NCBI GenBank assembly: GCA_963971535.1
Contig: OZ020598.1
Coordinates: forward strand, 95,359,315 to 95,423,314
Origin: Notolepis coatsorum
Lineage: Eukaryota > Chordata > Actinopteri > Aulopiformes > Paralepididae
DNA: 64,000 nt
Direction: 5' to 3'
How positions within the stretch are numbered: position 1 is the first letter of the stretch; each line of letters opens with the position of its first letter. A program made the translations under genes and the position numbers. A model generated the notes under the pieces. The model was not told the DNA's origin. It ran no database searches and saw only the letters and a program-made list of their open reading frames with translations. This document shows positions 7,866-27,228 of this stretch, one piece after another.

Positions 7866-9497
7866 ATGGCGAAAGCGGCAAGAGCAAACTTCTTCCACCC
7901 CGCTGAGCAGGAATTGCTCATGCGAACATACGAAGACCACAAGAGCACCATCATGATCAAGTCCAACACTGCCACCGCTGCGAGGGCAAGGCAGAGTGCG
8001 TGGCAACACATCGCTGATAAGTTAAATGCGTAAGTGTTGGGCAAATGTATATTATTCATTATCACAACCTTCAGAATAAGTAGATACAAAAGCCCAAAGC
8101 GTATTCATATAATTGATATGGATTAATAGATACGTATATGAGGATATGTATTAGGTCAGACATTCAATACATTGAAGCAGTGAAATGAAATTGCGTGTGA
8201 TCCTCTCTATTCTTACATTATTCATGAGTCCACCTTAATCATTTCCTACAATAATGATATGCTATGGTGTACTACCAACACTGTCATATAATTATGAGTG
8301 CTTTCAACCCCCATGTATAGAAACAACCCAGAGTCCAAAAGGACATGGGAGCAGGTGAAAACCAAGCATAAGAATATCATTCAGAATGGTGAGTGAGTGA
8401 ATTAATACAATCTGTGCCATGGTATTGCATTGAACAGCTTGTCAATGTCGTATGATCCTTCATATTCCAGCAAACAAAAAGAGGTCCGACATGGCCAAGA
8501 CGGGGGGAGGACCCAAGACCCCTGACTTCACTCCTGCGGAGGAGCTGGCCCTCCAGCACAACAGGGGAAGACCCATCATGGAGGGTGTAGCTGGGGGCAG
8601 CTCCTCCGCCTCCGGGAGTAATCCTAGGAGCCCTCATCCCAGAGGTATAGGTGCACTTCATTCTATGAGTCTCTTTCATGATTATTCATTTAGTTAACCA
8701 TCGTCACATTTTGCAGTGTTTGGACCTGCTGATGCAGAGGACACCACTGATGTAAGTTGATATTGCTGCATCATTGTGTAATGGTCCTATTTTAGCAATA
8801 AAGAAATCAATAATCAGAAGATCATTGAAAAATATCCCAAACCATTGCAATATCATCCACTGAATTATGTCTGTGTTTTTGGTAAATAATGTAATGTAAA
8901 AAGGGTATATAGCAATTATAAGCCTCTGCTTCAGCCTACACGTTGTCGGTCATTTTCTCTCTTTCATAAAAGGTTCTACTACTTTGCTTTGTAGAATACC
9001 GAAATAAAACCATCAATACATGTTCATTGTCCTTTAAAGAACCAAAGACAATTCTCCAAAGTTCCTAATTCCTAATTCACTAACAGACGGACAGTCCAGC
9101 AGACGATGGCGAGGACACCCCAACTGCCTGTTCCGGCGATGTGGTAAAAACAAGTTGTGGAAACTAATACTCCTATCCAACTCACTCCTTGTGAGTGGTA
9201 TTTGGACTAAATCAATGCATTCCTTTAGCCAGGTACTGAATCACGGCCGGAGCCTGCAAGCGGAAGTTGCGGGCTGAGGTTGCATTCTTACAGTCGGAGA
9301 TGGCGGGTCGGAACGAGTACCGCCGGCTAAAAATGCGGAAACTACACAAAGAAATAGAATTGATTGATCGGCAGCTGGATGTGAGTTGTGAAGCTTTGCC
9401 TAAAGTATTTGTGAGCTTTGGCATGAAATGCAACTTAACTGAAATTCTTTCTTGTGTGCACTTTCATTTACAGGCGGACAGCAGTCAAAATAAATAA
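7866..9497 (+). CDS. Harbinger Myb/SANT-like accessory protein
   Basis: Exons at 7866-8029, 8321-8388, 8471-8644, 8717-8751, 9087-9143, 9229-9380 and 9474-9497 have GT-AG borders; phases agree through exon 5. The product starts MAKAARANFFHPAEQELLMR and runs through AWQHIADKLNANNPESKRTW and QVKTKHKNII, a trihelix Myb/SANT-like DNA-binding domain; it ends in a coiled-coil-like tail (MRKLHKEIELIDRQLD, then ADSSQNK stop). In Harbinger this protein binds the ends and carries the transposase to the nucleus. The exon 5-6 junction as drawn is out of frame with the tail by one base, so a small indel or another acceptor must be assumed. An AATAAA overlaps the stop. Confidence 0.8.
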
Positions 9498-9674
9498 AGA
9501 CTTTATTGTACAACATATGGATCTCTTCTTCTTCTTGTACATGTTCCTCTATGAATGGGTATAACGTGAAAGCAAAGAGGGTGGCAAAGCCTATAACCAT
9601 ATAAATTAAACATGCAAACATGAAAAGAGGAATACGTAAGATGAGTCCAACATTGACCTAAATTAACTCAACAC

Positions 9675-11263
9675 CTAACCAAAATGATGGTGGGCAATTC
9701 TGTTCCTTGCAGTCTGTCCGGTCTGCTCGTCCAAGTGGACTGGCTGTAGGTCATCCTCAGGATGGTCCAGGATGACTGGGACCCTCTCCTTCCTCAGTGT
9801 TGCCACATTGTGGAGCACTGCACAGGCCACAGTGATGTCACATGCCCTGTCTGGTGCCACCCGCAGCCCGCGCAGACACGTGAATCTGGCCTTCAGTTGG
9901 CCGAAGGTCATTTCTATCCGGGCTCTCGTCCAAGCATGAGCCCCGTTGAAACGGGCTTCAGGCCCTGGTGCTGGCTCTGGATAGGGGGTCATGAAGTAGG
10001 GCTTGCATGCATAACCCCTGTCTCCAATTAGGAGTCCATCGTAATGACCTATAGTAGATAATATACAATGTTAGATCACCTCTACATGAAATAAGCATTT
10101 ATAGATGACATGATATTTGCTATACCTTGCTCGAAGCTGTTGCACAGTGCAGACTCTCTGAATACTCTGGAGTCGTGGACGGAGCCCGGCCACTTGGCCT
10201 CAATATTGGTGATGAGGCAGGTGGAGTCACAGATCATCTAAGATGAATTGCGGTCAAGTCATGGTTATTGTACAGTACATGGGTAGCCATACAGCAGGCA
10301 ATTGCAAGGTCCATGATGACCCCTATGTTAAAACAAATATGATTGCTTTTATAGCAATGTAATTTGAGGGGAATTGTCATAAGTTGGCCTACCTGCACAT
10401 TAATGCTGTGAAAGCCTTTTCGATTCACAAAATCACCCTCGTTTGGGCCAGAGGGTGCTTTGAGTTTGATGTGCGTGCAGTCCACTGCGCCAATGACATT
10501 TGGAAACTCTGCATAATAATAATGAGCTCCGTAAGGAATAGTGATATATGAATGCACTTTAATTAAATGGTGGAATATTGAATAACTCAATTACCCGCAA
10601 TTAAGGAATAGTGATATATGAATGCACTTTAATTAAATGGTGGAATATTGAATAACTCAATTACCCGCAATTAAGGAATAGTGATATATGAATGCACTTT
10701 AATTAAATGGTGGAATATTGAATAACTCAATTACCCGCAATTCCATAGAAGCCCTCTTTGATTACATTCACTTGGACACGGCCAGGGAATGTAATGTAGT
10801 CATCCATGAACGTCTTCAAGGCCAAATATACTTTGCGAACAGCACGGCATGCAGCGGCTTTGCTGATGTTCTCCGCATCGCCTACGGTGTACAGAAAGGT
10901 ACCACTGGCAAAGAAACGCAAGGCAATGCAGAGGGTCTGGGTGACAGTCAACGCTCTGCTGCGGCGTGTTTGATTAACAAGGTGTGGCCCGAGAAGGTCT
11001 TGGAGGAAAATGATTCCTCGTCTGCTAAATCTATAGCGCTCGTACAGGAACTCATTAGTATGAGCTAACGGATCTTGCCGATCCCTAAGCACTCTCTCTC
11101 TATGAACTGCTAATCGGACTATGATTGCTCCTTCGTCAATCGGATCTCTGAGGAAGGGACATGCCATTATTTGCGAGGGTGTGGCCACAATCCACGCATA
11201 ACGTTTCAATCTATGCTTGAATGAAACAGAATCCAGGCGCTCCTCTCCTTCCTCGCTCCTCAT
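9675..11263 (-). CDS. Harbinger (HARBI1-like) DDE transposase, intact
   Basis: Four minus-strand exons, 11263-10735, 10508-10393, 10237-10126 and 10048-9675, have GT-AG borders and join with matching phases into 1131 bases: 376 codons plus stop. Acidic catalytic candidates are visible in order: [10 protein letters not shown], then [20 protein letters not shown] and the helix [15 protein letters not shown]. The N-terminal part has the helix-turn-helix-like stretch [19 protein letters not shown]. The length fits HARBI1-like proteins (about 350-400). The start at 11263 is the first ATG of the frame. It cuts and pastes the element together with the Myb-like partner. Confidence 0.88.
10531..10740. 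repeat. 70-bp unit in three tandem copies inside transposase intron 1
   Basis: The unit, containing AAGGAATAGTGATATATGAA and CTCAATTACCCGCAAT, starts at about 10531, 10601 and 10671, nearly identical. Read on the minus strand each copy contains GCGGGTAATTGAG, the intron 1 splice donor, so the donor site exists in triplicate. Confidence 0.9.
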
Positions 11264-11781
11264 ACACAGCGGAGAATATGAAGGGAATCCGAGCCGAACG
11301 AGCGATAGGTTTCAATCATTAAGGATGTCCCCGCGGGATTCACATTTGCAATGCTGCGCGTTGTTAAAATAACCATTATAATGTGTACATCGCACTGAGC
11401 GAGCGCCACGGTATATATAACGTGCATTATTTAGGACAAAGTGAATTTAGTATCAGCATTTTGGGTCTATTTTACATTTCAAAAGACCCCTCTGGAAGAA
11501 TGGAGCACAAAAACGTAATTCAGAATGGTATAACGCAGATCCTAGGCTGTGGGAATAATTTCAGGAAACAAGCTGTCACTTTCTTTGCGGGGGCGTGGCT
11601 CTGCTTGATCCGGCTAACTTGAACTTAAACTCTGCTTTCGACCAGGCTCAAACTTTTGGATCTGTTGTCATGGTGATTTGAACAATCCAGGTACGGGGAA
11701 TCGGAAAGTCCGGCTTAAGTCAGACTTACCCGGAAGTTATCCGGCTAACTCAGTTATCCAGGTACGAGGAACGGGGCCCAG

Positions 11782-12417
11782 ATGAGTATAATGGACAAGG
11801 CTATAGAGAGGTCTGCTTCTCACCTTGTTGATGAACGCAATTGGTGTTTTAGCACCAGAAGAAAATCAGTTATTGCCACCGCTTCGCTCTCGTGAAATTG
11901 CCTGACGTGAGCAGCTCGCCTCTGTATACACATGCAGGCCTCAATCAAAATGCTGGAAGGTGGCTGGACTAGAGAAAGTGGCCGCCGCCGCCGACGGTTG
12001 TGGTCGTTTGTAGTCCGTCGTTGAGTTATGTTGGTACCTTGATTGCGTTGAGATATGTTGGTACATTGATTGCGATTGCGGAATAGCTTCCAAAAGAGTA
12101 GACACATGATCATGAAGGTCTCCATTGCGTCTCTTGATCTGTATGAAATCGACTTGTCTGTGTTATTGAATGACTTGTTGCGTACTAGATGACGCAAGTA
12201 TACCCTTGTGTTCATTGGCTCATAGGCGACACACACGCGCACACACGCCACCTGCTGTATCGGAGTGTTGCTCTCCACAATTGTGCCGGGAGCGCACCAA
12301 GACGAAGTGTGTACGCAAACTAGAGGGGGGAGAGGGGGGGGGCGGGGAGTTCGCATCAGATCTCGGAACGGACTAGAACGGAATGTAATGTAACCGAATT
12401 GGTGATTGAGAAAGGCC
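11782..12417. other. Unassigned sequence between Harbinger and piggyBac-like DNA
   Basis: A 178-codon minus-strand frame (12356-11820) with an Arg run and a segment PLSLVQPPSSILIEAC crosses this stretch. I do not recognise the protein, and it has no neighbouring exons I can support. The rest is unremarkable apart from a G-rich run near 12325-12346. Confidence 0.3.
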
Positions 12418-12805
12418 CCTAAGAGAATCGATTTTCAACTTGCGGCACCAGCGAGCATACGTACACATATACTATCGATAATCTAGCGTTTATTTGAAAA
12501 CGATTCATAAATAGGCTGAAAAATTACAACGTTCTAGAATATTCCAGTACAGGGCGTTTATCACGGAATCTTTTTATTTTCCTTGAGAACAAGGGCTTTT
12601 CAAAATGCTATAAAACGGAAATGAACCGATAAAAAAACAATCCGCTTCGACAATGTTGACTGGAAAACGAGTCATTGATAAGCGACGGGCAGATTAGATA
12701 CATAATTTAAAACATAGATTAGGCGTTATTAACGCTAACATTGAAGTGGATGCTGGGCATTCAAGCACTAAATCGTCTGCCCACTGCTGGCGCTGAAAGT
12801 GTTAA
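12418..12805 (+). mobile_element. piggyBac-like element, 3' part (group B)
   Basis: It ends GGCGCTGAAAGTGTTAA at 12805. It matches the element at 45579-46504 from AAGAGAATCGAT onward, including ATCTAGCGTTTATTTGAAAA, AATATTCCAGTACAGGGCG and GCGACGGGCAGATTAGA. The left part is missing. TTAA at the end is the piggyBac target site. Confidence 0.7.
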
Positions 12806-12867
12806 GCATGGATTCGAAACACGGATATATACGTGGCCCGTCCCGAATGTGTTAAGCTCTGCATTCA

Positions 12868-13155
12868 GGTCGACCCCCCTGCTGTGATGGATCACGGTTT
12901 ATGTGGGTTTTATTTTAGTTTATTCTAGTGTGCTTTAGATGTATTTAGATTTTTCTCTGGTGAGCTGTCAATCTGTTAACACCAGTTAATTGCCATGCGA
13001 CATGGCAGGTGTCTGGGCTTGATTGCCAACTAATTGGTGTCAGGTGTGCAGTGCCTTTAAGTGGGCTTGGTTGACTGTGTTCGGATGCTTGTCCATTTCA
13101 TGTTTTCCCTCAATAGTAGAGGAGTGTCCCAAGCTCATGCTTCTAGGGTTTTTTA
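12868..13155 (+). repeat. Dispersed repeat X, copy 1
   Basis: About 280 bp matching, in opposite orientation, 38262-37985: shared words include TCACGGTTTATGTGGGTTTT, GCAGGTGT..GGGCTTGATTGCCA, GTTGACTGTGTTCGGATGCT and AGAGGAGTGTCCC. Similarity ends near 13150. The following 100 bp (13156-13258) holds a common fish repeat word, ATTTATCCAGGAATGTCCCA. Both copies of X lie beside piggyBac-like ends. Class unknown. Confidence 0.75.
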
Positions 13156-13258
13156 TTTAATTTATTTATCCAGGAATGTCCCATTGAGATACAAGATCTC
13201 TTCTTCCAGGGAGTCCTGCCGAACATGGCACACAAGTGTCAACATAAAAACAAGGGCA

Positions 13259-13840
13259 TTAACACTTTCCGTGCCAGCCATGCGGTGCCTAGGAACCCTG
13301 TTGCGTGCCACCATTCTATTCAATGACAGAGCTCTCATATTTGCGAACGCATAAACTATATCTTAAATTATGGCAATGTGTCTAATATGGCCGTCGCTTA
13401 TCAATGACTTGTTTGCAGTCAACATTGTCTAAACGGATTGTTTTTTTTAATCGGTTAATTTCCGTTTTATACCATTTTGAAAAACGCTCGTTTTTTGTAA
13501 GTTTCCGGAAAAAATTAAGATTCTGTGATAAACGCCCTTTACTAGAATACACAAAACACGTTGTCATTTTCTGCCTATTTATGAATCGTTTTCAAATAAA
13601 CGCTAGATTATCGATAGTATGTGTACTTATGCACGCTATAGAAGCGGGCTGAAAATCGATTATCTTATTTCCTGATCGCACACACACACATATGGCACAC
13701 GCTGATATGTAGGTGAAAATAGCTCTGATTATCCCAAGACTGGTAAAATAGATTCCTTACATCAGATCAGATGTTCTCCAAAAAGATTATTCAAATTCCT
13801 GATAGTCATTCAAAATATCGATCGCGTTTATTGATCCAAC
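13259..13840 (-). mobile_element. piggyBac-like element, reversed and truncated (group B)
   Basis: It opens TTAACACTTTCCGTGCCA at 13259 and then runs as the reverse complement of the group B element at 45579-46504, past its GGTAAGGAATC segment (here reversed near 13750), to about 13840, where the kelch fragment begins. The other terminus is missing. Confidence 0.7.
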
Positions 13841-13842
13841 TC

Positions 13843-14242
13843 TGGGTACTGGAAACACATGGTGGAAATGGTGGTGAAGTCATTGAGGCCTCCGGCCACG
13901 AAGAGCAGGTCGTCCAACACCCTGAGGCTAAGGTTTGTTTTCACTGTCAAACCCTCCCACCACATAGACTTATCCTCTGTACGCAGCGACTCCCACTCCG
14001 GCACGCCTGCTGCTCATGGGGGCGATCAGAGTCCACTGGTTGATGGCTGGGCTGTAGCACTCAGCTGAAAGCAGACACTCCGCCCCGTTGTCGCCACCAC
14101 AGATGTAAACCTTGCCGTGGAGGGCTGTTGCCCCTGCGTCGCTCCTGTGCTCCAGCATGGGTGAGATCACTGTCCACTGGTTGGTTTCAGGCTTGTAGCG
14201 CTCGCCGGTGTTCAGTCGCATGTGTCCGTCAAACCCTCCCAT
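13843..14242 (-). pseudogene. Kelch-repeat gene fragment (KLHL10-like)
   Basis: On the minus strand a 90-codon frame from 14242 reads MGGFDGHMRLNTGERYKPET, then NQWTVISPMLEHRSDAGATA, KVYICGGDNGAE, SAECYSPAINQWTLIAPM and SSRRAGVGVAAYRG: two kelch blades with the GG and Y..NQW marks. After a stop near 13970 similarity resumes in a shifted frame (LRVLDDLLFVAGGLNDFTT) and runs into piggyBac-like DNA at about 13840. KLHL proteins are Cullin-3 adaptors; the blade sequence resembles the testis member KLHL10. BTB and BACK parts are absent. Confidence 0.7.
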
Positions 14243-14722
14243 GGCGTAGATACCTGGCCACCTGGCCTCAAAAGCATCAGCTGGCTTTGGACATCAAGGG
14301 TCCTTTTCCTCAAGAAGTATGTCTTCACCGTTTGCCAACCCCTGGACAGCCAGCGTGGCCTTGGAGTTGAAAGGTCATCTGGTGCAGACGTCTTGGGTCC
14401 TGATGTCCTGAACCTCAGTGTAACTGACACTGTCCTCTGGTGCAGAGACGTGTTGAGTCGTGACGTGTCCAGTCGTATGTGTCCGTCGAACCCTCCCATG
14501 GCGTAGATACCTGGCCACCTGGCCGCTGGCTTTGGACATCAAGGGACCTTTTCCTCAAGAAGTATCTCTTCACCGTTTGCCAACCCCTGGAAAGCCAGCG
14601 TGGCCTTGGAGTTGAAAGGTCATCTGGTGCAGACATCTTGGGTCCTGATGTCCTGAACCTCAGTGTAACTGACACTGTCCTCTGGTGCAGAGACGTGTTG
14701 AGTCGTGATGTCCTTCACCTCA
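14221..14722. repeat. 257-bp tandem duplication next to the kelch fragment
   Basis: Two copies, 14221-14477 and 14478-14722, both begin TGTGTCCGTC(A/G)AACCCTCC and share CCTTTTCCTCAAGAAGTAT, GTCATCTGGTGCAGAC and CTGACACTGTCCTCTGGTGC. The second lacks about 13 bp near its start. The minus strand of each start reads IYAMGGFDGH, a kelch edge, so the duplication took in a piece of the kelch gene. Confidence 0.85.
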
Positions 14723-14738
14723 GTGTAAATCCCTAGGT

Positions 14739-14875
14739 ATGAAGTCTAAACCTCCAGCCTTCATGGATAGAAACAAGTCCTACAGGGTGATGCCTGTACC
14801 CGAGTCTTCAGAGGAGGAGGAAGAGTGGAGCCCTCATCTGGAAAGACAGCATGGTCCTTCAGTGGTGAGAGCCCC
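14739..14875 (+). pseudogene. Unique 5' coding piece of the PRDM9-like remnant
   Basis: The ATG at 14739 opens MKSKPPAFMDRNKSYRVMPV, then PESSEEEEEWSPHLERQHGP, and runs in frame into unit 1 at VKRSTRG. It occurs once, so it marks the gene's own upstream coding region rather than the repeat unit. The acidic run and placement suit the linker before the SSXRD motif. The window shows no KRAB exon upstream; the next sequence 5' is the duplicated kelch-flanking DNA, so a true exon start or a splice acceptor near 14736 are both possible. Confidence 0.6.
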
Positions 14876-15561
14876 TGTCAAGAGGTCAACCAGAGGGAAT
14901 TCAGCTCCACATTCTGCTACTCAGAGTGGTGAGCCATCTACACCCATCATACCAGGGCTTCCACAGAGAGAAGAGGATAAGGTTTATATTAGAGGGAGAA
15001 ACTTGAGAAACCTGCCTAGGGTCGGTTACGAAGAACAGGAGGTTCCTGATGACGATCACTATTATTATTGCTATGGCTGTAAGGAGTTCTACCTTCACGA
15101 GTGTGACGTCCATGGTCCTCCTGTCTTTTACCCTAAAGTGGATGTGGTTCCAGGAGAGCGAGACAGAGCCAAGAAAACTCTCCCTCCAGACTTCCAGTTG
15201 AAGAAGTCTGGCATACCAGAGGCTGGTCTCGAGTGTTTTACTGTGGCAAGACAGAGCTTCCTGTAGGAACTCACTTTTGGCTGTATGAAGGGGACAAGGT
15301 AGAGGAGGAGGAAGCTGCCAAGAGTGGCTACTCCTGGATGATATACAAGGAAAAAAATTGTGACAAGTACATCGATACCAAGAGAGAGACTCATTCTAAC
15401 TGGATTAGGTATGTGAACAGAACCTAGTAGCATTTCAGCACCGTGGACAGATTCTCTACCGTTGTTGCTGTTCTGTCACTTCAGGAGAGGAGCTGCTGGT
15501 CTGGTATGGAGATGAGTACGCCGCACATCTGGGCATCATCTTCGATGAACTTTGGGACAAT
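14876..15561 (+). pseudogene. PR/SET unit 1
   Basis: In frame with the unique 5' piece up to GIPEAGL near 15227, where one base is missing compared with the other units (CTCGAG versus CTTGGAG), so the frame ends at 15266. Downstream the catalytic part (HFWLYEGD, then GYSWMIY) continues in another frame to the shared TAG TAG, followed by [11 protein letters not shown] and [15 protein letters not shown]. It has GLPQREED where the other units have GVPQREED. Confidence 0.8.
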
Positions 15562-16248
15562 TGTCAAGAGGTCAACCAGAGGGGATTCAGCTCCACATTC
15601 TGCTACTCAAGAGTGGTGAGCCATCTACACCCATCATACCAGGGGTTCCACAGAGAGAAGAGGATAAGGTTTATATTAGAGGGAGAAACTTGAGAAACCT
15701 GCCTAGGGTCGGTTACGAAGAACAGGGGGTTCCTGATGACTATCACTATTATTACTGCTATGGCTGTAAGGAGTTCTACCTTCACGAGTGTGACGTCCAT
15801 GGTCCTCCTGTCTTTTACCCTAAAGTGGATGTGGTTCCAGGAAGCGAGACAGAGCCAAGAAAACTCTCCCTCCAGACTTCCAGTTGAAGAAGTCTGGCAT
15901 ACCAGAGGCTGGTCTTGGAGTGTTTTACTGTGGCAAGACAGAGCTTCCTGTAGGAACTCACTTTTGGCTGTATGAAGGGGACAAGGTAGAGGAGGAGGAA
16001 GCTGCCAAGAGTGGCTCCTCCTGGATGATATACAAGGATAAAAAGAGTGACAAGTACATCGATACCAAGAGAGAGACTCATTCTAACTGGATTAGGTATG
16101 TGAACAGAACCTAGTAGCATTTCAGCACCGTGGACAGATTCTCTACCGTTGTTGCTGTTCTGTCACTTCAGGAGAGGAGCTGCTGGTCTGGTATGGAGAT
16201 GAGTACGCCGAACATCTGGGCATCATCTGCGATGAACTTTGGGACAAT
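15562..16248 (+). pseudogene. PR/SET unit 2
   Basis: Nearly identical to the other units but with an extra A in TACTCAAGAGTGG (about 15606) and a one-base loss at the VVPGERD site (about 15842), so no frame spans it. It reads VPDDYHYYYCYGCKEF where the others have DDH or DNH. It ends with the same VNRT, TAG TAG and SET-tail sequence. Confidence 0.8.
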
Positions 16249-16935
16249 TGTCAAGAGGTCAACCAGAGGGGATTCAGCTCCACATTCTGCTACTCAGAGT
16301 GGTGAGCCATCTACACCCATCATACCAGGGGTTCCACAGAGAGAAGAGGATAAGGTTTATATTAGAGGGAGAAACTTGAGAAACCTGCCTAGGGTCGGTT
16401 ACGAAGAACAGGGGGTTCCTGATGACGATCACTATTATTACTGCTATGGCTGTAAGGAGTTCTACCTTCACGAGTGTGACGTCCATGGTCCTCCTGTCTT
16501 TTACCCTAAAGTGGATGTGGTTCCAGGAGAGCGAGACAGAGCCAAGAAAACTCTCCCTCCAGACTTCCAGTTGAAGAAGTCTGGCATACCAGAGGCTGGT
16601 CTTGGAGTGTTTTACTGTGGCAAGACAGAGCTTCCTTTAGGAACTCACTTTTGGCTGTATGAAGGGGACAAGGTAGAGGAGGAGGAAGCTGCCAAGAGTG
16701 GCTCCTCCTGGATGATATACAAGGACAAAAAGAGTGACAAGTACATCCATACCAAGAGAGAGACTCATTCTAACTGGATTAGGTATGTGGACATAACCTA
16801 GTAGCATTTCAGCACCGTGGACAGATTCTCTACCGGTGTTGCTGTTCTGTCACTTCAGGAGAGGAGCTGCTGGTCTGGTATGGAGATGAGTACGCCGCAC
16901 ATCTGGGCATCATCTTAGATGAACTTTGGGACAAT
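16249..16935 (+). pseudogene. PR/SET unit 3, frame open to the shared stop
   Basis: The frame is open from before the unit to RYVDIT and the shared TAG at about 16799. Equivalents of the three human PRDM9 catalytic tyrosines are kept: in LYEGD (about 16659), in QILY (about 16832, next frame) and in LVWY (about 16880); the spacing of the last two (16 residues) matches human Y341-Y357. Unit-specific changes are PLGTHF for PVGTHF and IHTKRE for IDTKRE. Confidence 0.8.
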
Positions 16936-19361
16936 TGTCAAGAGGTCAACCAGAGGGGATTCAGCTCCACATTCTGCTACTCAGAGTGGTGAGCCATCTA
17001 CACCCATCATACCAGGGGTTCCACAGAGAGAAGAGGATAAGGTTTATATTAGAGGGAGAAACTTGAGAAACCTGCCTAGGGTCGGTTACGAAGACGATCA
17101 CTATTATTACTGCTATGGCTGTAAGGAGTTCTACCTTCATGAGTGTGACGTCCATGGTCCTCCTGTCTTTTACCCTAAAGTGGATGTGGTTCCAGGAGAG
17201 CGAGACAGAGCCAAGAAAACTCTCCCTCCAGACTTCCAGTTGAAGAAGTCTGGCATACCAGAGGCTGGTCTTGGAGTGTTTTACCGTGGCAAGACAGAGC
17301 TTCCTGTAGGAACTCACTTTTGGCTGTATGAAGGGGACAAGGTAGAGGAGGAGGAAGCTGCCAAGAGTGGCTACTCCTGGATGATATACAAGGACAAAAA
17401 GAGTGACAAGTACATCGATACCAAGAGAGACTCATTCTAACTGGATTAGGTATGTGAACAGAACCTAGTAGCATTTCAGCACCGTGGACAGATTCTCTAC
17501 CGTTGTTGCTGTTCTGTCACTTCAGGAGAGGAGCTGCTGGTCTGGTATGGAGATGAGTACGCCGCACATCTGGGCATCATCCTAATAGCCATAGCCAATA
17601 TTATAGTCAGACCACTCGCTCACTGTATTAATTTGTCCTTACTACATGGTGTGGTGCCAAAAAACATCAAAATTGGAAGAATAATACCCATTTATAAATC
17701 AGGTGACAAAAATAGTATTAATAATTACCGTCCAATATCCGTATTACCAGCTCTATCCAAAGTCTATGAGAGAGTTGTGTACAATAGATTAAGCGAATAC
17801 ACCACCAAGCTAGATATACTCACCAATTCACAATACGGCTTCAGGAAAAAAAGAACTACAAACATGGCAATATTAGACCTAATAGAAAAAATACATGATG
17901 CCATTGATCAGGGTGATTGTGGGGTGGGCGTTTTCCTGGATCTATCAAAGGCTTTTGACACCATTGACTTCACCATTCTACTTGGGAAACTACACCATTA
18001 TGGCATAAGGGGTCTGGCTCTCAACTGGTTCAGTAGCTATTTACATGGTAGGCAACAGTACGTCGATATAAAAAAATCACAAATCAATAAAAATGGACAT
18101 CAAATATGGGGTCCCCCAGGGGTCAATTCTAGGGCCTTTACTATTTATTCTCTATATAAATGACTTTGTCAACTCATCTGTACTTCTGCACAAAGTTATA
18201 TTCGCTGATGACACTAATTTGTTTCTGTCACATAAAAATCCACTCAAGCTACAAGATCTACTCAATACAGAACTACAAAAAGTGGACACCTGGTTCAAAT
18301 GCAACAAGTTATCACTAAATCTCAGCAAAACAAACTTTATTGTCTTCCACTCAAATCGGATGCACACACATCACATGTGCATAAAAATAAATGAAAAGGA
18401 GCTGTCAAGAGTGGCGTCCACAAAATTCCTGGGGGTCATCATCGATGAGTCACTCAACTTCAAATGCCACATAAAACACCTACAAACAAAACTGTCCAAA
18501 TATGTTGGCTTATTCTGCAAAATACGGCATTTTCTTCCCTTGCCTGCCCTTCTCACTTTATATAAAACCCTGTTTGAACCCCTCATTAATTACTGTAACG
18601 TCATATGGTGCAACACATACCCCAGCCATCTCAAAAAACTAGAAAGCCTTCAAAAGAGGGTACTACGAGTGCTGTCATGGTCCGGGTATCGAGCGCCCTC
18701 AAAGCCTCTTTTCCATCGCTTTGGTCTCCTGAGGCTCGCTGAATTTAACATTCATCAAAACGCATCAATTATGTATCAAGTTGTCAACAACATGAATCAC
18801 AGACTGTCTGAGCTTATCCCAGTCTGCCAACCACTGCACATCCACAACACAAGAAACAAGCATCTTATATCTGGCAAGAGGAGAAGGCTAAATTGTGCTA
18901 GCCTAAGCATAGCATGCAGGGGTCCACAGATCTGGAACAAGCTTGATGAAAATCTAAAAATGACTAATACCTTTAAAACCTTTAAAAAATCATTGAAAGA
19001 GGAACTGCTAAAATCATATCTCTAATTAAAATTATAACTTAGGAATAAATTTGTCTGTATTATGTATCTCTGTTATGTCAGTAGTAGGTAGGTGTGTAAA
19101 CCTACCCACGTTGCAGTTTTTTGTTTTGTTTTTGTTTGTTTGTTTTGTTTATTTTGTTATTGTTTTGTTTGTTCATATTCTGTTTGTATCTGTGTTCAGG
19201 CTCCCTCCAAAAGCTTTAAATAGCTTCTTGGGAGACCTGGCACATGCACACAATTTGCGACATGTTATCACATGAGGATACTCGCATGTAAAATGTATCG
19301 TGTGTGTGTGTGAATAAAAATTCAATTCAATTCAATCATCTTCGATGAACTTTGGGACAAT
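16936..19361 (+). pseudogene. PR/SET unit 4, split by a LINE
   Basis: The unit runs 16936-17580 and resumes 19340-19361 after the LINE insertion (ATCAT duplicated at 17576-17580 and 19335-19339). It has an in-frame 15-bp loss (GYEDDHYYY without EQGVP) and a 2-bp loss before the shared stop (TKRDSF). GVFYRGK replaces GVFYCGK. Confidence 0.8.
17581..19334 (+). mobile_element. LINE (Jockey/CR1 group), 5'-truncated, inserted in PR/SET unit 4
   Basis: Translation shows RT boxes [52 protein letters not shown] and FADDTN, then the C-terminal region (KFLGVIIDESLNFKCHIKHL to KEELLKSYL stop at 19025). One frameshift lies near 18105-18115, just before the VPQGS box. The 3' end has AATAAA and an (AATTC)n tail. 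Target duplication ATCAT. The catalytic ADD is kept. Confidence 0.85.
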
Positions 19362-20047
19362 TGTCAAGAGGTCAACCAGAGGGGATTCAGCTCCACATTC
19401 TGCTACTCAGAGTGGTGAGCCATCTACACCCATCATACCAGGGGTTCCACAGAGAGAAGAGGATAAGGTTTATATTAGAGGGAGAAACTTGAGAAACCTG
19501 CCTAGGGTCGGTTACGAAGAACAGGATGTTCCTGATGACAATCACTATTATTACTGCTATGGCTGTAAGGAGTTCTACCTTCACGAGTGTGACGTCCATG
19601 GTCCTCCTGTCTTTTACCCTAAAGTGGATGTGGTTCCAGGAGAGCGAGACAGAGCCAAGAAAACTATCCCTCCAGACTTCCAGTTGAAGAAGTCTGGCAT
19701 ACCAGAGGCTGGTCTTGGAGTGTTTTACTGTGGCAAGACAGAGCTTCCTGTAGGAACTCACTTTTGGCTGTATGAAGGGGACAAGGTAGAGGAGGAGGAA
19801 GCTGCCAAGAGTGGCTCCTCCTGGATGATATACAAGGATAAAAAGAGTGACAAGTACATCGATACCAAGAGAGAGACTCATTCTAACTGGATTAGGTATG
19901 TGAACAGAACCTAGTAGCATTTCAGCACCGTGGACAGATTCTCTACCGTTGTTGCTGTTCTGTCACTTCAGGAGAGGAGCTGCTGGTCTGGTATGGAGAT
20001 GAGTACGCCGCACATCTGGGCATCATCGTCGATGAACTTTGGGACAA
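19362..20047 (+). pseudogene. PR/SET unit 5, frame open to the shared stop
   Basis: An open frame from 19345 through SSXRD-like, knuckle and SET core ends at VNRT (19914). Unit-specific changes are EEQDVPDDNHYYY and KKTIPPDF. The catalytic tail [20 protein letters not shown] follows in the shifted frame and leads directly into the unique 3' sequence at 20048. Confidence 0.8.
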
Positions 20048-20240
20048 TAAGAGTTCTACTAAAGGAGTGAAGACCCAGTCTGTCAGTACTGCTACACCTC
20101 TGAGGTCTTCCTCCACAAACACATGAAGAGGATTCATCCAGCTGCTGAGAAGTGGACAGATCCGCACAGAGAGGCACCTCCTCTCAACCAGGCACTTTAT
20201 TGGGACCCTGTCTGCCCCGCCCCCCTGTGAGGTAATTAAA
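20048..20240 (+). pseudogene. Unique 3' end of the PRDM9-like remnant, zinc-finger-like
   Basis: Starting about 20069 one frame reads [20 protein letters not shown], then RIHPAAEKW. This matches in place and pattern the single C2H2 finger that follows the SET domain in PRDM9, but the C-to-H spacing is three residues short (C-x2-C-x9-H-x4-H). It is out of frame with the preceding DELWDN. No downstream finger array is seen. Confidence 0.6.
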
Positions 20241-20649
20241 TGAAAGAAGGTCATTAGTCAAATATCATCTGCAATTCATTTTAAGTGTTTGTTTCATCCT
20301 GTTTGGAGCACCAGATAGGTGGGGTTTACAACATAACCATGACTAGGAACCTGACTAGTTTACCAGTATAACAACATTTTCAGCTTACTTGAAATCACCG
20401 GCAGTTATCTGGTCCAGGTCAATCATCTGTGGCTTTGTTTCTCTACATGGAACACTGTCAGCTGGCTACTTTTACTATGCGTCCACTAGTCTCTTTCAGA
20501 GAGCTACCGTAAATCCTCTAATAGTGACCTGTATTCAATTAAAAACCGACTCTATTAATGACCGGGTGCGCTGTTGAAATAAGCAATTATAAGCCGACCT
20601 CATAATACAAGCCAGGTTACTAATATACGCATGAGCGAACCTCCCCTTA

Positions 20650-21420
20650 CTTCCGTATATGGAACACGGGTCGCACGTGTTTCAGTATGTTTCTTTATTG
20701 TTATGCTCTCAGTAATGCATACAGCTGCTAGCTCCTAGCTCACGCTAAGCCTTCTACCAGTCAGGGCCATATACGAAGATGCACCATCCGTTAGTCCTCA
20801 AACCTAGATGACAGTTCTTACATATTACCAGCAGGAGGGGTAATAACATCACCATAACATATCCCTTCTTATAAATGGTTAAGTTAACAAACACACTTAA
20901 TCATTACACTTTAACAGCCAGTAATGTAACAGAGTAACAGTAGCGTAATAAATCTATCCTTTCTTTCCTTCTCCTTAACATCAACATAATGACACAACAG
21001 GAACAGTCATCTCTTTTTTTCTTCTTTTTTACATAACAGTAAGTCCCAAAAGTCCATAGGCCTTTAGCCTTGGGTCGGTGAAGCCTGCGGGCTACAGATT
21101 GAGTCTTTCAGGTGGTCGCGACCAACGGCCGCTACGCAGTCGGGCAGCGGGCCTCTCGGTGCTTGACGGTGCTGCAGGTCAGTTTGTGGGCTGTGAGGCA
21201 CACCTGTCTGCCTGCCCCCCCCCCCGCCCCCACAGTCTAATCTCCTCCCCAGCCTCAGTGATGCCTTCTGCACAGTCAGGTCTGGGCAGATTCTGCTCAA
21301 GTGTCTCATCCTGAGGAGTTGAAACTCCCTCCCGCCTCTGTGCTGCCCATTCAGCCATCCGGAGGTCCACTCTGTTATGCCTATAGAGAGTCCCATCAAC
21401 ATCAACGAGGAATGAACGTG
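20650..21420 (-). mobile_element. LTR retrotransposon fossil (Ty3/Gypsy-like), 3' end only
   Basis: On the minus strand the end of a pol region is followed by a purine tract and a TG-starting LTR-like segment with an AATAAA signal, toward about 20650. Only this 3' portion is present; no gag, protease, RT or second LTR was seen. Broken and old; the family is inferred from the style of the pol end. Confidence 0.45.
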
Positions 21421-22173
21421 GTGCGACCCTCTTCAGACAAGAGCCGAGCCGCCACCGCCCTGCAGAGACATTCTACATGTATAATCATGTAGTTTTATAG
21501 CAGAAGACATTCTCCCATTATTACAATATGCAAAACCTAGTTCCCTTGGGTTCTCTCTCTCTGGCACAGCCAGACCACTCACAGATCCTTATCAGTGACC
21601 ATAAAAACTCACACACACACGTTGCAATATCCTCATCTTCCCTAAGACACATTCATTCCCCCAAGACACAACGCTGGAACATATAGCCTTAACTCAACTA
21701 ATTTGACACGAAATGCCACAAGTGACTAAATTATGACATGACTAGGATTACCCCGGGATTAGGAGACGGGGCCAGGTAGAGTTTAAGTACCAACGATAAG
21801 ACACAGACACATATAAATCTCTTTCCCTCCCTTTCAGAACAGACCCCCACTTTAACTCGCACACACCCAAAACACATCCCCCACACACACATCCCACACA
21901 AACACACCAATTATATGATGTGCCATGGAGAGAGGAAGGGGAGGACTTCACTTTTTTCATTTGGGAGCACACACTTTGGCCGGCCGGTCAGATCACTATG
22001 TGTTCAAGAACTAGTATTTTGTTTATTTCACCTATTATACCTTATTCACTTTTATACCTTGTTCATTCATTTTTATATAATAAACTACCTCAAAAGTGTT
22101 TCATTCTTTACTTCTTTTTCAAATCTTATTACCGATCGGGTTTCAAAGTCTGCAAACTCGACATGTTCCAAGC
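21421..22173. other. Unassigned non-coding stretch
   Basis: There is no supported gene. It holds CA-rich runs near 21600-21620 and 21860-21910 and an AT-rich part from 22010 to 22110. It may belong to the composite element around it. Confidence 0.3.
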
Positions 22174-22350
22174 ATACTAGGAAAGCATACTAGGACCGCT
22201 ACTGTTCCTAATTTATGCAAATGACATGTCGTCAGCTTGTGACTGAAACTTGTTCCTGTTTGCGGACAACTCAGCCCTGCTGGACTCTGACAAGAACAAG
22301 TTACAGGTTGAAAAAACCCTTGGCTCTGAACTAGGCAAAATCTGACTGCG
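22174..22350 (+). mobile_element. LINE reverse transcriptase fragment
   Basis: Translation LGPLLFLIYANDMSSA and LFLFADNSALLDSDKNKLQV is the box leading to and including the RT catalytic site, with ADN in place of ADD. A short relic with stops, without flanking LINE sequence. Confidence 0.6.
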
Positions 22351-22436
22351 GTCAAGCCAGCCGTCTTTCACTTTTGTGTGGTCAAACCAGCCAACCCTGT
22401 AATTTCGAGTGGGCGATTAGTTACAGGTTTACGGTA

Positions 22437-22797
22437 ATGCAATAAAACAACCATGGGAAGCTGTTGTAATTAACCGAAGTGACTTTCGAATACAGTCTCA
22501 CAAGTTGATCTTACAGAAATACTTTAATTATTCCCGGTAATGAACTGAATGAACATCAAATCAATAGGACGTTTCCTATGTGCAGTATTATATATTCGAC
22601 CACTAAAGCTACAGAAAATCCCACAGAGGAACACTTCCGGTGAGGATTTCAAAGTGAAGGATGGCATGTGATGGCAGCTCAGTTGGATACACCCGGCCAG
22701 TGTCCACTCTGAGTCATCCAGCTGTAACTCAAGCCTACCTGACTGTCTACATTGATTGATCCGGGAACATTCTCCCACAATTTGATATATTTTTTCA
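22437..22797. other. Unassigned stretch before the 73-bp repeats
   Basis: No gene or recognised element. A minus-strand frame of 84 codons (22778-22524) has no visible domain. Confidence 0.3.
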
Positions 22798-23016
22798 GGA
22801 TCTCAGAACTACCAGCGGGATTCCCTTCGACTAGCTGCAGAGGAGGGGTATTAGTACGTCAACAACACAAGGATCTCAGAACTACCAGCGGGATTCCCTT
22901 CGTCTAGCTGCAGAGGAGGGGTATTAGTACGTCAACAACACACGGATCTCAGAACTACCAGCGGGATTCCCCTCATCTAGCTGCAGAGGAGGGGTATTAG
23001 TACGTCAACAACACAA
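22798..23016. repeat. 73-bp unit in three tandem copies upstream of the PYD gene
   Basis: Each copy starts GGATCTCAGAACTACCAGCG and ends GTACGTCAACAACACA; starts are 22798, 22871 and 22944, with one or two differences. It ends about 180 bp before the ATG of the PYD-PYD-CARD gene. A promoter or 5' UTR role is possible but only positional. Confidence 0.9.
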
Positions 23017-23699
23017 GGGTCCTGAGACTGCTGTCAAGCCATGGGGCAGATCTATTTTTGACCATGATTTGACATTAGTTGCTTGCCGTTTAATCAACAT
23101 CGAACGACCCCCCACTTCCTCCCAGACACCCATTCCAAGAGCCTGTTCGCTTTCCAGGTCTCTCTCTCTCTCTCCTCTCTCTCTCTGATCAACAATGGCA
23201 GCGCATTCAAAACTACTGTTCAACATCCTGGACGGGTTAAGAAAGGAGGAGCTGAAGACGTTCCGGTGGTATTTGAAACAAGAGGACGTCCTGGAGGGCT
23301 GCCCTCCCCTCGCGACGTGCCGTCTGGAGAATGCTGACATACATGACATGGTGGATCTGATGGTGAAGTACTATTCTGATCTAGCTGTGAAGATTACAGA
23401 GAATATACTGAAGAATCTCAACAGGATTGATCTGGTGGCAGATCTACACGCAGCGGCATCTGATCAAGATGCGCATTTAAAACTACTGTCCAACATCCTG
23501 GAGGAGTTAAGTAAGGAGGAGCTGAAGACGTTCCGGTGGTATTTGAGACAAGAGGACCTGGAGGGCTACCCTCCCATCCCTGCTGACATATATGACCTGG
23601 TGGATCTGATGGTGCAGCACTATGATGATGTAGCTGTGATGATTACAGAGAAGATACTGAAGAAGCTCAACAGGAATGATCTGGTGGAAGATCTACACG

Positions 23700-24030
23700 C
23701 AGCGTCTGGTGCAGCGTCTGGTGCAGCATCTGGTGGAGCGTCTGGTGCAGCGTCTGGTGCAGCGTCTGGTGCAGCGTCTGGTGCAGCATCTGGTGGAGCA
23801 TCTGGTGCAGCGTCTGGTGGAGCGTCTGGTGGAGCGTCTGGTGCAGCGTCTGGTGGAGCATCTGGTGGAGCATCTGGTGCAGCATCTGGTGGAGCATCTG
23901 GTGGAGCATCTGGTGCAGCATCTGGTGCAGCGTCTGGTGCAGCGTCTGGTGGAGCGTCTGGTGCAGCGTCTGGTGGAGCGTCTGGTGCAGCATCTGGTGG
24001 AGCATCTGGTGCAGCATCTGGTGGAGCGCC
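23700..24030. repeat. 12-bp coding minisatellite, about 27 copies
   Basis: The unit GC(A/G)TCTGGTG(C/G)A(G) encodes AASG or GASG in the PYD/CARD frame. All three forward frames and the reverse frames stay open because of the repeat, giving several spurious frames. The linker would be flexible and of variable length between alleles. Confidence 0.95.
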
Positions 24031-24188
24031 TGGTGCAGATATCATGTGCATGTATCAAGGGAGCAAATTCGTGGATCAGCACCGGGTAGCCCTCATCCAG
24101 CGGGTGTCCGCGGTGGATGCCATCTTGGACGAGCTCCTTGGCGCGAGTGTTATTACCCACGAAGAATACAGCAAGGTCAAGTCAAAGG

Positions 24189-25300
24189 AGCTTGTGTTCC
24201 CCAGGGCTCTGTCCTTGGCCCTATCCTCTTCATTATCTACCTCCTCCCACTCGGTCGGATTCTCCGTAAACACAGCATCAATTTCCACTGTTACGCAGAC
24301 GACACCCAGCTCTATGTTTCCTCCAAACCCACTTCCACCCTCCCTCCCTCTTCCCTCTGTGCCTGTCTACAGGAAATCAAATCCTGGTTCACCTCAAATT
24401 TCCTGAAATTAAACAGTGGCAAAACAGAGGTAGTCCTCATTGGCTCCAAGTCCACACTCACCAAGCACCCCCGTTTCACCCTCACCATAGACAACTCCTT
24501 GGTTTCCCCTTCCCCCCAGGTCAAGAGTCTGGGTGTCGTCCTCGACAGCACCCTATCATTCCATTCCCACATCAATAACATCATCCGGTCCGCCTACTTC
24601 CACCTTCGCAACATCAACCGCCTCCGCCCTTCACTCACTCCCAACAGCGCCGCAATCCTGGTCCACGCCCTCGTCACTTCCCGCTTAGATTACTGCAACT
24701 CCCTTCTCTTTGGTCTTCCCCACAAACTCCTCCATAAGCTCCAACTGGTCCAGCACGCTGCTGCCCGTATAATCACCAGAACCCCTGTCATCAGTCACAT
24801 CACCCCCGTCCTACGCCAACTACACTGGCTTCCCATTAAACTCTGCATAGTCTACAAGATCCTCCTCCATACATACAAGGCCATACACAACCTTGCCCCT
24901 CCATACCTGTCCGACCTCCTTCATATTAACATTCCCACCAGGTCCCTCAGGTCTGCCTCCTCCATCAACCTGACCATCCCCCCAGCCCGTCTGTCCACCA
25001 TGGGGTCAAGAGCCTTCAGCTGCTCTGCCCCCCGCCTCTGGAACTCCCTCCCCCCCGACATCAGGAACATTGACTCCATCATTTCTTTTAAAACCCACCT
25101 CAAAACCCACCTTTTTAGGCAGGCGTATGTCTGATTTTAATTTAGTCTGTTTTTATATATTTAAATTTTTTTTATTTTAATGAACTGTGATTTTATTTAT
25201 TTTATTGTGATGAATTTAACTGTTTTTAAATTGTTGTACGGCGACCTTGTGTGCCTTGAAAGGCGCCTTATAAATAGAATGCATTATTATTATTATTATT
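24189..25300 (+). mobile_element. L2-type LINE, 5'-truncated, inserted in the CARD
   Basis: It begins inside the RT ([20 protein letters not shown], then [12 protein letters not shown]) and continues to [19 protein letters not shown] and [10 protein letters not shown] stop at 25134. The 3' end reads CCTTGAAAGGCGCCTTATAA and an ATT repeat tail, typical for fish L2. Target duplication AAAGG (24184-24188 and 25301-25305). The RT fragment frame is unbroken and ADD is kept. Confidence 0.9.
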
Positions 25301-25588
25301 AAAGGGCATAAATCAGGAGAAGATGAGGGAGCTCTACGATGGTCCCCTGAACACCGTCGGGACCAAAGGGAAATACATCTTCTACAAGATCCTGCTGAAG
25401 AAACACGCATGGCTCATAGAAGACCTGGAAATGGAAAGAAAATGGAAATGGTGTGAGGATTTGGGGGTGGCTCATAAAAACTCTGAACTGAACTGAACTG
25501 AAGAGGCTTGTCTCCAGTAGCAGCAGCAGCACCCCAAGTGTACTTTCTTTTCTTTTTATGTATTCATAAAGTATAACTAAAAGTTATG

Positions 25589-25652
25589 TTAACCCTTTCA
25601 CTACCACACTACAGAACGTTAACACTTTGTCGTGTGGCAGTGAAAGGGTTAA
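25589..25652. mobile_element. 64-bp palindromic piggyBac-type mini-element
   Basis: Left TTAACCCTTTCACTACCACA and right, reverse-complemented TTAACCCTTTCACTGCCACA, are inverted repeats with TTAA ends, separated by about 20 bp that includes AACGTTAACACTTTG. This is the piggyBac terminal style (CCCTTT..CTGCCA) reduced to little more than its ends. Confidence 0.65.
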
Positions 25653-25734
25653 CCTTCTGTATTGTCACTGTGAAAAACAAAATACTTCCCAAAGGTCAGT
25701 GAATACCACGATCACAACACCAGAGGGAGCTCCA

Positions 25735-26382
25735 CAAATCATGTTAAACCCAGATTCGGCTCAAACAAGGGACTAAACACGTTTCGCAATTATGCCACAT
25801 CAATGTGGAACGCCCTACCCACAGCTGTAAAGGAATATGAATCACTACCCACCTTCAAAACCACTCTCAAAAAACACCTAAGGGAGACTGCAATTCGAAA
25901 CTGGCCCCTACAAATGTCCTAACCCAGTTGCACAGTAAATTACCAAGTATGTCAGTATTCCATTGTACAGTGTACAGTGTCCCCCCCCCCTACCCAACCC
26001 CCCCCCCCCCCCCCCCACCTCCAATGTACAGCCCTCACCCACCCACCCAACCCCACATCACCCACCCAACCTCCTCCAATGTACAGTTTCTACGTCAAAT
26101 GTATATACACTCTTTTTCTGGACACTTTTGTATCACAAACAGTACTGTATTTGCAAATCTAATATGTCATAAATGTATAGATGTAGCAGTACTGTCTATC
26201 TGTATGTCATGTATGTCATATATGTTATGATGAATTGAAAATGGGGGACCCTGATGTAAACAAGACGAAAGTCTTTCTCTGGTCTGCATCCCCTTAACAA
26301 TTGTGTGTATTGAGCCGTACTGTATTGTACCCATTCTGCAATCTGTTAATAAACTTTTCAATCAATCAATCAATCAATCAAT
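25735..26382 (+). mobile_element. LINE 3' end with (AATC)n tail
   Basis: The last coding part reads NTFRNYATSMWNALPTAVKE, then SLPTFKTTLKKHLRETAIRN and a stop near 25920. The 3' UTR contains poly-C runs and ends CTGTTAATAAACTTTTCAATC with tandem CAAT. A second copy of the same 3' end is at 43997-44559. Confidence 0.8.
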
Positions 26383-26770
26383 GTGGTTCATTTATATTAT
26401 TTGCGATTGAGGAACAGGGTAATTTATGAGAATAATGTTAGGATTTATTGATTCATAAACTTGTTGCACAAATACTATGAACTACTTTTACTGTGTACAT
26501 TTTGAGAATGGCAAAATTCCCTTGTTTCAAGTTTCAAGTTCAAGTTTGCCAGGACATGCAAGTCATAAAACACTAGAGTGTGACTTGAACGGAGACTCTG
26601 GGAAACTGTCCCCCAGCAGGGGTCACAGGGATAAATAGCCCCCAGCTGTCTTAAACTGACCGGTCGTAACGAAGGAGGGGGTCAGGAGAACAATAGACAA
26701 GATATGACTGTTTGTACCCAAGTGGGACCAGGTGCTAAAATGCATCAAGGCTTCAAAATGAAGCCCTGCC
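26383..26770. other. Unassigned AT-rich stretch before a SINE
   Basis: No gene seen. Part of it (about 26455-26500, GTTGCACAAATACTATGAAC) resembles the duplicated sequence at 33411-33700, so both belong to some dispersed repeat. Confidence 0.35.
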
Positions 26771-27228
26771 GGGCGGCTAGGTGGTGCAATGGGCAAGGCG
26801 CTCACCACCAATGCAGGATACGCTGGGTTCGAGCCCAGCTCTCCGCATTGCTATCAGCTTTGCTGGTCGTTCATACTAAAACAATTGGCAGTATTAGGGG
26901 GTGGGAAGCTGATGGGTGGGGATCGGACGTTGTGGACAGCGACTCCTACAGGTCGGTTGGTGCGCCTGCGCAGCAGAATCAGGAAGTGACGGGGGCGGCG
27001 TGCCCTCCCACGCTGAGAGATCACGCTGTGCAGGTGAAAAGATGCGACGGCTGCTTCCTCGAGTACCGGAGGGGACACGTGATGTAAGGCTTCGTCCACA
27101 TTGCAGCCGGCTTGTGGGAGGCATGGCCTAACAACGTTCGAGACAGGGGAGGGTAGAATTGGACGATACAAAATTGGGATGGGAGAAAAATAGAAAATGG
27201 GAGAAAAAGTAGATACATTTTTTTTATT
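26771..27228 (+). mobile_element. tRNA-derived SINE, copy 1
   Basis: The tRNA-like head GGGCGGCTAGGTGGTGCAAT has a B box GGGTTCGAGCCC near 26825. The body has CAATTGGCAGTATTAG and GCGACTCCTACAG, and the A-rich tail GGGATGGGAGAAAAATAG. A perfect 10-bp target duplication AAGCCCTGCC flanks it (26761-26770, 27229-27238). Copies 2 and 3 are at 46518-49475 and 60345-60787. Class unnamed by me. Confidence 0.88.

Follow-up and report, generated by a model that had tools for sequence, protein, structure and literature searches.

A spliced, frame-broken PRDM9 copy arranged in tandem in the genome of the fish Notolepis coatsorum

Between 90 and 218 retrocopies each have been reported for five published fish genomes (PMC3136929). 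The most closely comparable PRDM9 loci are the duplicated and often truncated PRDM9-alpha paralogs of salmonids (PMC11703093), where, as in the genome described here, many PRDM9 copies are found per genome, most of them broken and some adjacent. The salmonid copies, however, are presented in the consulted text as genome, gene or segmental duplicates with missing exons or frameshifts, whereas those described below are intronless, and a word search for 'retro' gave no hit in the main text of that article. PRDM9, teleost, pseudogene and SSXRD are also combined in an open-licence paper (PMC5519329, consulted in part); among the open-licence papers listed, none dealt with PRDM9 retrocopies by its title or the start of its abstract, and in the same library no paper on tandem PRDM9 retrocopies turned up. 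Here we analyzed a stretch of 64,000 nt from Notolepis coatsorum (the window; contig OZ020598.1, C43:95359315–95423314 of a 3.42-Gb assembly), in which an SSXRD–PR/SET block of PRDM9 is repeated in five head-to-tail units at 14876–20048, as found by exact searches and by aligning the region to the window with BLAST. Judged from its sequence, this array is a reverse-transcribed copy of PRDM9 RNA and not a set of duplicated genomic exons. On our best reading, the array is a dead by-product, and what is unusual is the recurrence of such spliced PRDM9 arrays within one genome.

The origin of the copy became apparent from eight PRDM9 loci of the same genome that contain introns (hereafter, parents). 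Three lie on C43 near 14 Mb and one each on C9, C8, C21, C49 and C7, and parts of each were read. One after another, their exons match consecutive parts of the window, with ends at or a few bases from splice sites, and all 41 full-length matches to seven exons passed a loose test of splice-site context, with AG upstream and GT downstream within 3 bases. In one of the C43 genes (C43b), all exons from the KRAB exon to an isolated zinc finger are separate, and the window copy is without these eight introns. Because the introns are present in PRDM9 genes of the same genome and absent here, the copy is RNA-derived; the KRAB–e1 joint was counted among the eight from the end of the KRAB exon, since no parent read shows the copy's exact letters. 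At its 3′ end the copy extends ∼277 bp (20232–20508) into the next intron, the last before the zinc-finger-array exon of four parents as read. It stops in that intron, and no zinc-finger array was detected in the window by a strict C2H2 motif scan, which in the parents C43a, C43b, C9 and C49 revealed another 4 to 6 fingers within the parts that were read.

Other routes to such a copy were rejected. A long terminal repeat element carrying the copy is not indicated, as window positions 8000–14724 and 20509–27000 did not match each other at E 1e-3. An origin from circular RNA, with the unit junction as back-splice, was dismissed because both unit ends fall inside exons, eA and eF. Finally, an odd stretch after the residues YVN, which might be taken for an intron retained inside the unit, results from a deletion of 22 bp flanked by 4-bp direct repeats.

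PRDM9-derived DNA in the window, all of it on the plus strand, extends from ∼14727, where the final bases of the KRAB exon are found, to 20508, a position within the last intron of the parents. It begins with a single-copy 5′ part in which the last KRAB-exon bases are joined to exon e1, and e1 to the beginning of exon eA, with no introns between them (14727–14875). The units follow, starting at 14876, 15562, 16249, 16936 and 19362: unit 1 measures 686 bp (14876–15561), units 2, 3 and 5 measure 687 bp each (15562–16248, 16249–16935 and 19362–20048), and unit 4 is divided (16936–17581 and 19335–19361). The five are 97.8–99.0% alike (pairwise divergence 1.0–2.2%) and share one junction, GGGACAATTGTCAAGAGG, for which an exact search gave four occurrences in the window and no more (15554, 16241, 16928 and 19354); head-to-tail copies with a common junction are what defines a tandem repeat array. 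Downstream lies the single-copy end of exon eF with exon eG, the first, isolated zinc finger (20049–20231), which differs from parent C43b by deletions of 22, 14, 11 and 2 bp.

A first-pass annotation, made from the sequence alone, had described five near-identical units of about 687 bp with a common junction and, within the window, single-copy flanks on both sides, all of which we confirm. Its span of 14739–20240 contains the array but falls short of the true limits on either side, and its count of five holds, but an insertion was missed. Unit 4 is split by a ∼1.75-kb, 5′-truncated long interspersed nuclear element (LINE) at about 17582–19334 on the plus strand (limits read from the sequence), with reverse transcriptase (RVT_1, PF00078) on two frames (E 5.5e-17 and 3.2e-13) and an ATTCA-repeat tail. 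Its 6-bp target duplication, ATCATC, was likewise read from the sequence at 17576–17581 and 19335–19340, the second copy opening the last part of unit 4. This insertion into one unit only, together with private substitutions or indels in units 1, 2, 3 and 5 and in unit 4, makes it extremely improbable that the tandem copies are an assembly error.

By comparison with known proteins, the block is PRDM9 and not PRDM11: a 178-residue open piece of unit 3 matched three PRDM9 sequences of the PDB with E 4.5e-29 to 1.1e-28, against 2.2e-13 for PRDM11, and the PR domain PF21549 was detected on both pieces of that unit (E 4.7e-11 and 7.7e-13). The annotated likeness to PRDM9 is thereby supported, with no better match to another member of the PRDM family. 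Catalytic tyrosines had also been noted as kept (Y276, Y341 and Y357 as named in PMC11703093); all three are readable at the expected places, in LYEG, ILYR and VWYG, but alignment to a solved PRDM9 structure holds for the first only. No Pfam match covers SSXRD at 14739–15260, yet the exons there align to PRDM9 loci. The KRAB domain is not retained beyond the last bases of its exon; in parent C43b, this exon scores 24.1 bits for PF01352 (cut-off 20.4). A genome-wide KRAB search gave 0 matches, as did its 14 controls, and is therefore uninformative.

Loci with KRAB, SET and zinc-finger exons, candidates for the fuller PRDM9 genes for which the first-pass annotation had suggested a search, exist elsewhere in the genome. 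In C43b, the predicted SET part has an open frame all the way from eA to the isolated finger, and further fingers follow after the last intron. Exon e1 had 41 genome matches, of which 24 stop at the exon border or before, 7 of these on C23, amounting to a large PRDM9 family. Repeats lie in or near two of the genes: in the C9 gene (L019 5600–6145), the end of one SET exon recurs ∼12 times behind that exon, mostly at 38-bp spacing, and a 2.9-kb tandem duplication with 95% identity lies upstream of the C8 gene (L026 1–9221).

Globally, a pattern for the eC–eD joint (≤3 mismatches) had 40 matches in the genome and 0 in a reversed control: 28 in an array at C4:219.79–219.81 Mb, 5 in the window, 1 in a single copy at C4:125.745 Mb, and 3 each at C43:12.2 Mb and C1:315.58 Mb. 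The e1–eA joint gave 7 matches (reversed control 0) and added C9:177.47 Mb as well as a 71-bp piece at C43:94.466 Mb. The total is seven spliced PRDM9 loci, four with at least three units, the C9 copy with one ∼170-bp repeat and two single. Such patterns miss copies without both joints or with more mismatches, and short stretches only were read at C9:177.47 (3 kb), C43:94.466 (3.5 kb) and C1 (4.5 kb). Capture by a LINE was rejected for the window, where no LINE-coding-like sequence lies behind the copy, unlike at C43:12.2 Mb and the C4 array. At C43:12.2 Mb, the copy continues into a reading frame that has a GDSL-lipase match just below the curated cut-off (32.4 versus 32.9 bits), and ∼0.6 kb beyond the C4 array there is an endonuclease match above it (32.4 versus 27.4 bits); we take both to be parts of LINEs. 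The C1 locus (L037 717–3643) is an old spliced PRDM9 array, 73–75% identical to the window copy over long matches; the sequence between its units appears gag-like by eye and has no Pfam match above cut-off.

Two other genes served as controls for intronless copies. The GAPDH C-domain had 11 matches, the longest covering ≤57 of 158 positions and none intronless. Cyclophilin (PF00160) had 36, of which 7 were nearly full length in one piece and all open over 372–531 codons; this control is not clean, because it does not distinguish retrogenes from single-exon genes. At C43:86308440–86328923, four one-piece cyclophilin domains of equal score, all in long open frames, follow one another at intervals of ∼6.6–6.8 kb.

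The seven loci do not represent seven insertions, because three of them share the 22-bp deletion. This frameshift is present in all five window units (in unit 5, it follows 19901), in every one of the 28 units of the C4 array and in the C4 single copy, whereas each of the six parents with exon eF read keeps the missing stretch. Since the lesion is common to the three loci and absent from the parents checked, they point to a single dead founder. In line with this, the tree places the window units together with those of the C4 array and with the C4 single copy, at a support of 95.2 in the approximate likelihood-ratio test (aLRT) and a bootstrap of 98; support is poor near the strongly diverged C1 locus, where C43:12.2 Mb groups with the other retrocopies at 0/38. 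The window copy and the C4 single copy also have the same PRDM9 stop point and, behind it, the same two dispersed repeats in the same order (window 20509–20870, plus strand, bases 1–169 and 170–362 of this stretch). Most likely, one retrocopy died, after which it reached three loci on two chromosomes, and two of these would have undergone separate amplification, each with its own unit limits. Immediately in front of the C4 single copy is what looks, on visual inspection, like coiled-coil coding sequence from a different gene (L012 4401–4648).

The window unit measures 687 bp and the spacing in the C4 array is about 536–574 bp; because these limits differ, the two amplifications are separate. 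In the C4 array, a dispersed repeat inside the unit was copied along, and a stretch of 1090 bp has a second copy at 100% identity. By eye this repeat had resembled the end of a LINE, a reading we dropped since its only Pfam match above cut-off is ALKBH8_N. At C43:12.2 Mb, two units agree to 99.96% over 2357 bp, non-PRDM9 sequence included. As inserted or non-PRDM9 sequence was co-duplicated, both loci were duplicated at the DNA level, and the identical junctions suggest that the same is most likely true of the window, for example through unequal exchange. Alternatively, the repeats could have arisen during reverse transcription, with the enzyme jumping repeatedly on PRDM9 RNA to produce a concatemer, as might be expected from partial repeats at either end of the C4 array, whose junctions are of several kinds, the short repeat inside the C9 copy and the unit lengths that differ among four loci. 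This is unlikely in view of the four identical junctions in the window, the co-amplification of a later insertion in the C4 repeat and the near-identity of the C43:12.2 Mb units beyond PRDM9 sequence. Amplification as DNA is not peculiar to these copies: 21 tandem duplications (unit 100–3000 bp, ≥85% identity) were counted in 238,024 bases from 18 fetched loci and the masked window, a sample mostly of PRDM9 surroundings and not of random DNA. Because such duplications are common in other sampled DNA, a PRDM9-specific tendency to tandem duplication is unproven.

Changes among the window units, indels left out, comprise 19 replacement, 6 silent and 0 stop changes, against a neutral expectation of 17.7, 6.1 and 1.2, and therefore look neutral. 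Fixed differences from parent C43b (22 replacement, 20 silent) mix the history of a constrained gene with that of a dead copy. The first-pass annotation had correctly found the frame broken in every unit, the common lesion being the 22-bp deletion, and had offered two fates for the array. The first, a dead by-product of PRDM9 turnover, agrees with our best reading, in which nothing suggests a working protein, although its intronless, RNA-derived nature had been overlooked. The second was the production of short SSXRD/SET peptides, and a use of the array, be it through such peptides or through RNA acting on PRDM9 genes, might be seen in the retained SET-type residues and in an open stretch of 227 codons across the border of units 2 and 3, made possible by a unit length of 687 bp, a multiple of three. 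We consider any such use very unlikely: the substitutions look neutral, every unit has the same frameshift, and the C4 spacings are mostly not multiples of three, so the peptide proposal finds no support. A broader speculation is that germline retroelements of this lineage use PRDM9 RNA as a template unusually often, that the resulting cDNA copies tend to form arrays (four of seven loci with at least three units) and that small RNAs from the arrays may act back on PRDM9 genes; this we regard as quite unlikely.

In the scenario we favor, a KRAB-type PRDM9 gene would have given rise to a spliced RNA that extended into the last intron and hence lacked the zinc-finger array; this RNA would have been reverse transcribed and inserted. 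A 22-bp deletion would then have broken its frame, and the dead copy would have spread, presumably, to three loci on two chromosomes. At the window locus, a 687-bp stretch would have been tandemly duplicated to five units, probably by ordinary DNA-level events, and a LINE would later have entered unit 4; on C4, a sister copy would have been amplified separately to 28 units with other limits. Several points weigh against this account. No poly(A) was found (no run of at least 8 A in 20451–20580, only an ATTAAA at 20538 inside a repeat), and no target duplication was seen by eye around the whole copy; with neither of these marks of an L1-type processed pseudogene, the copy was not assigned to that class. 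Its exact KRAB–e1 joint, CCTAGGTATGAAG, occurs in no parent among those read, and the three C43 genes are its nearest parents with weak bootstrap (98 aLRT/60). DNA-level amplification is proven for the C4 array and C43:12.2 Mb, and for the window only deduced. An unread parent may itself bear the 22-bp deletion and have been copied three times. Taken as a whole, a retrocopy killed by the 22-bp deletion and amplified separately as DNA, with no function indicated, nevertheless appears highly probable.

Directly upstream of the copy lies a piece of a Kelch-repeat gene on the minus strand (13973–14708; Kelch_1 E 2.4e-27 on 13973–14293), in which ∼250 bp are tandemly duplicated with 92.6% identity (14208–14463 and 14465–14708). 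Further downstream, a 12-bp repeat, GCAGCGTCTGGT, occupies 23699–24038 with 28.3 copies and 91% matches.

Dead spliced arrays of this kind could inflate similarity-based counts of PRDM9 copies, and feedback of small RNAs on PRDM9 genes, if true, would bear on PRDM9 control. More generally, a retrocopy of a recombination gene has here become a small satellite on more than one occasion within a single genome. A tandemly repeated intronless copy is also seen in DUX4, which sits in the D4Z4 array and keeps an open frame, whereas the PRDM9 units do not. Like the PRDM9 copies, DUX4 is an intronless gene copy, proposed to derive from retrotransposition of DUXC (PMC3004920). Chimeric insertions of LINEs with mRNAs (PMC13174262, PMC2104539) resemble the copy at C43:12.2 Mb and the C4 array, where PRDM9 cDNA runs into LINE-coding-like sequence of the same direction; here, more than one insertion event may be involved, and the window copy is backed by two other dispersed repeats and no LINE. 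The CICP processed pseudogenes, in the consulted part of their description (PMC13015009), are dispersed great-ape copies tied to SEPTIN14, unrelated to PRDM9 and without short-unit arrays, but like the copy described here they represent one RNA-derived insertion that was spread secondarily by DNA events, in their case segmental duplications.

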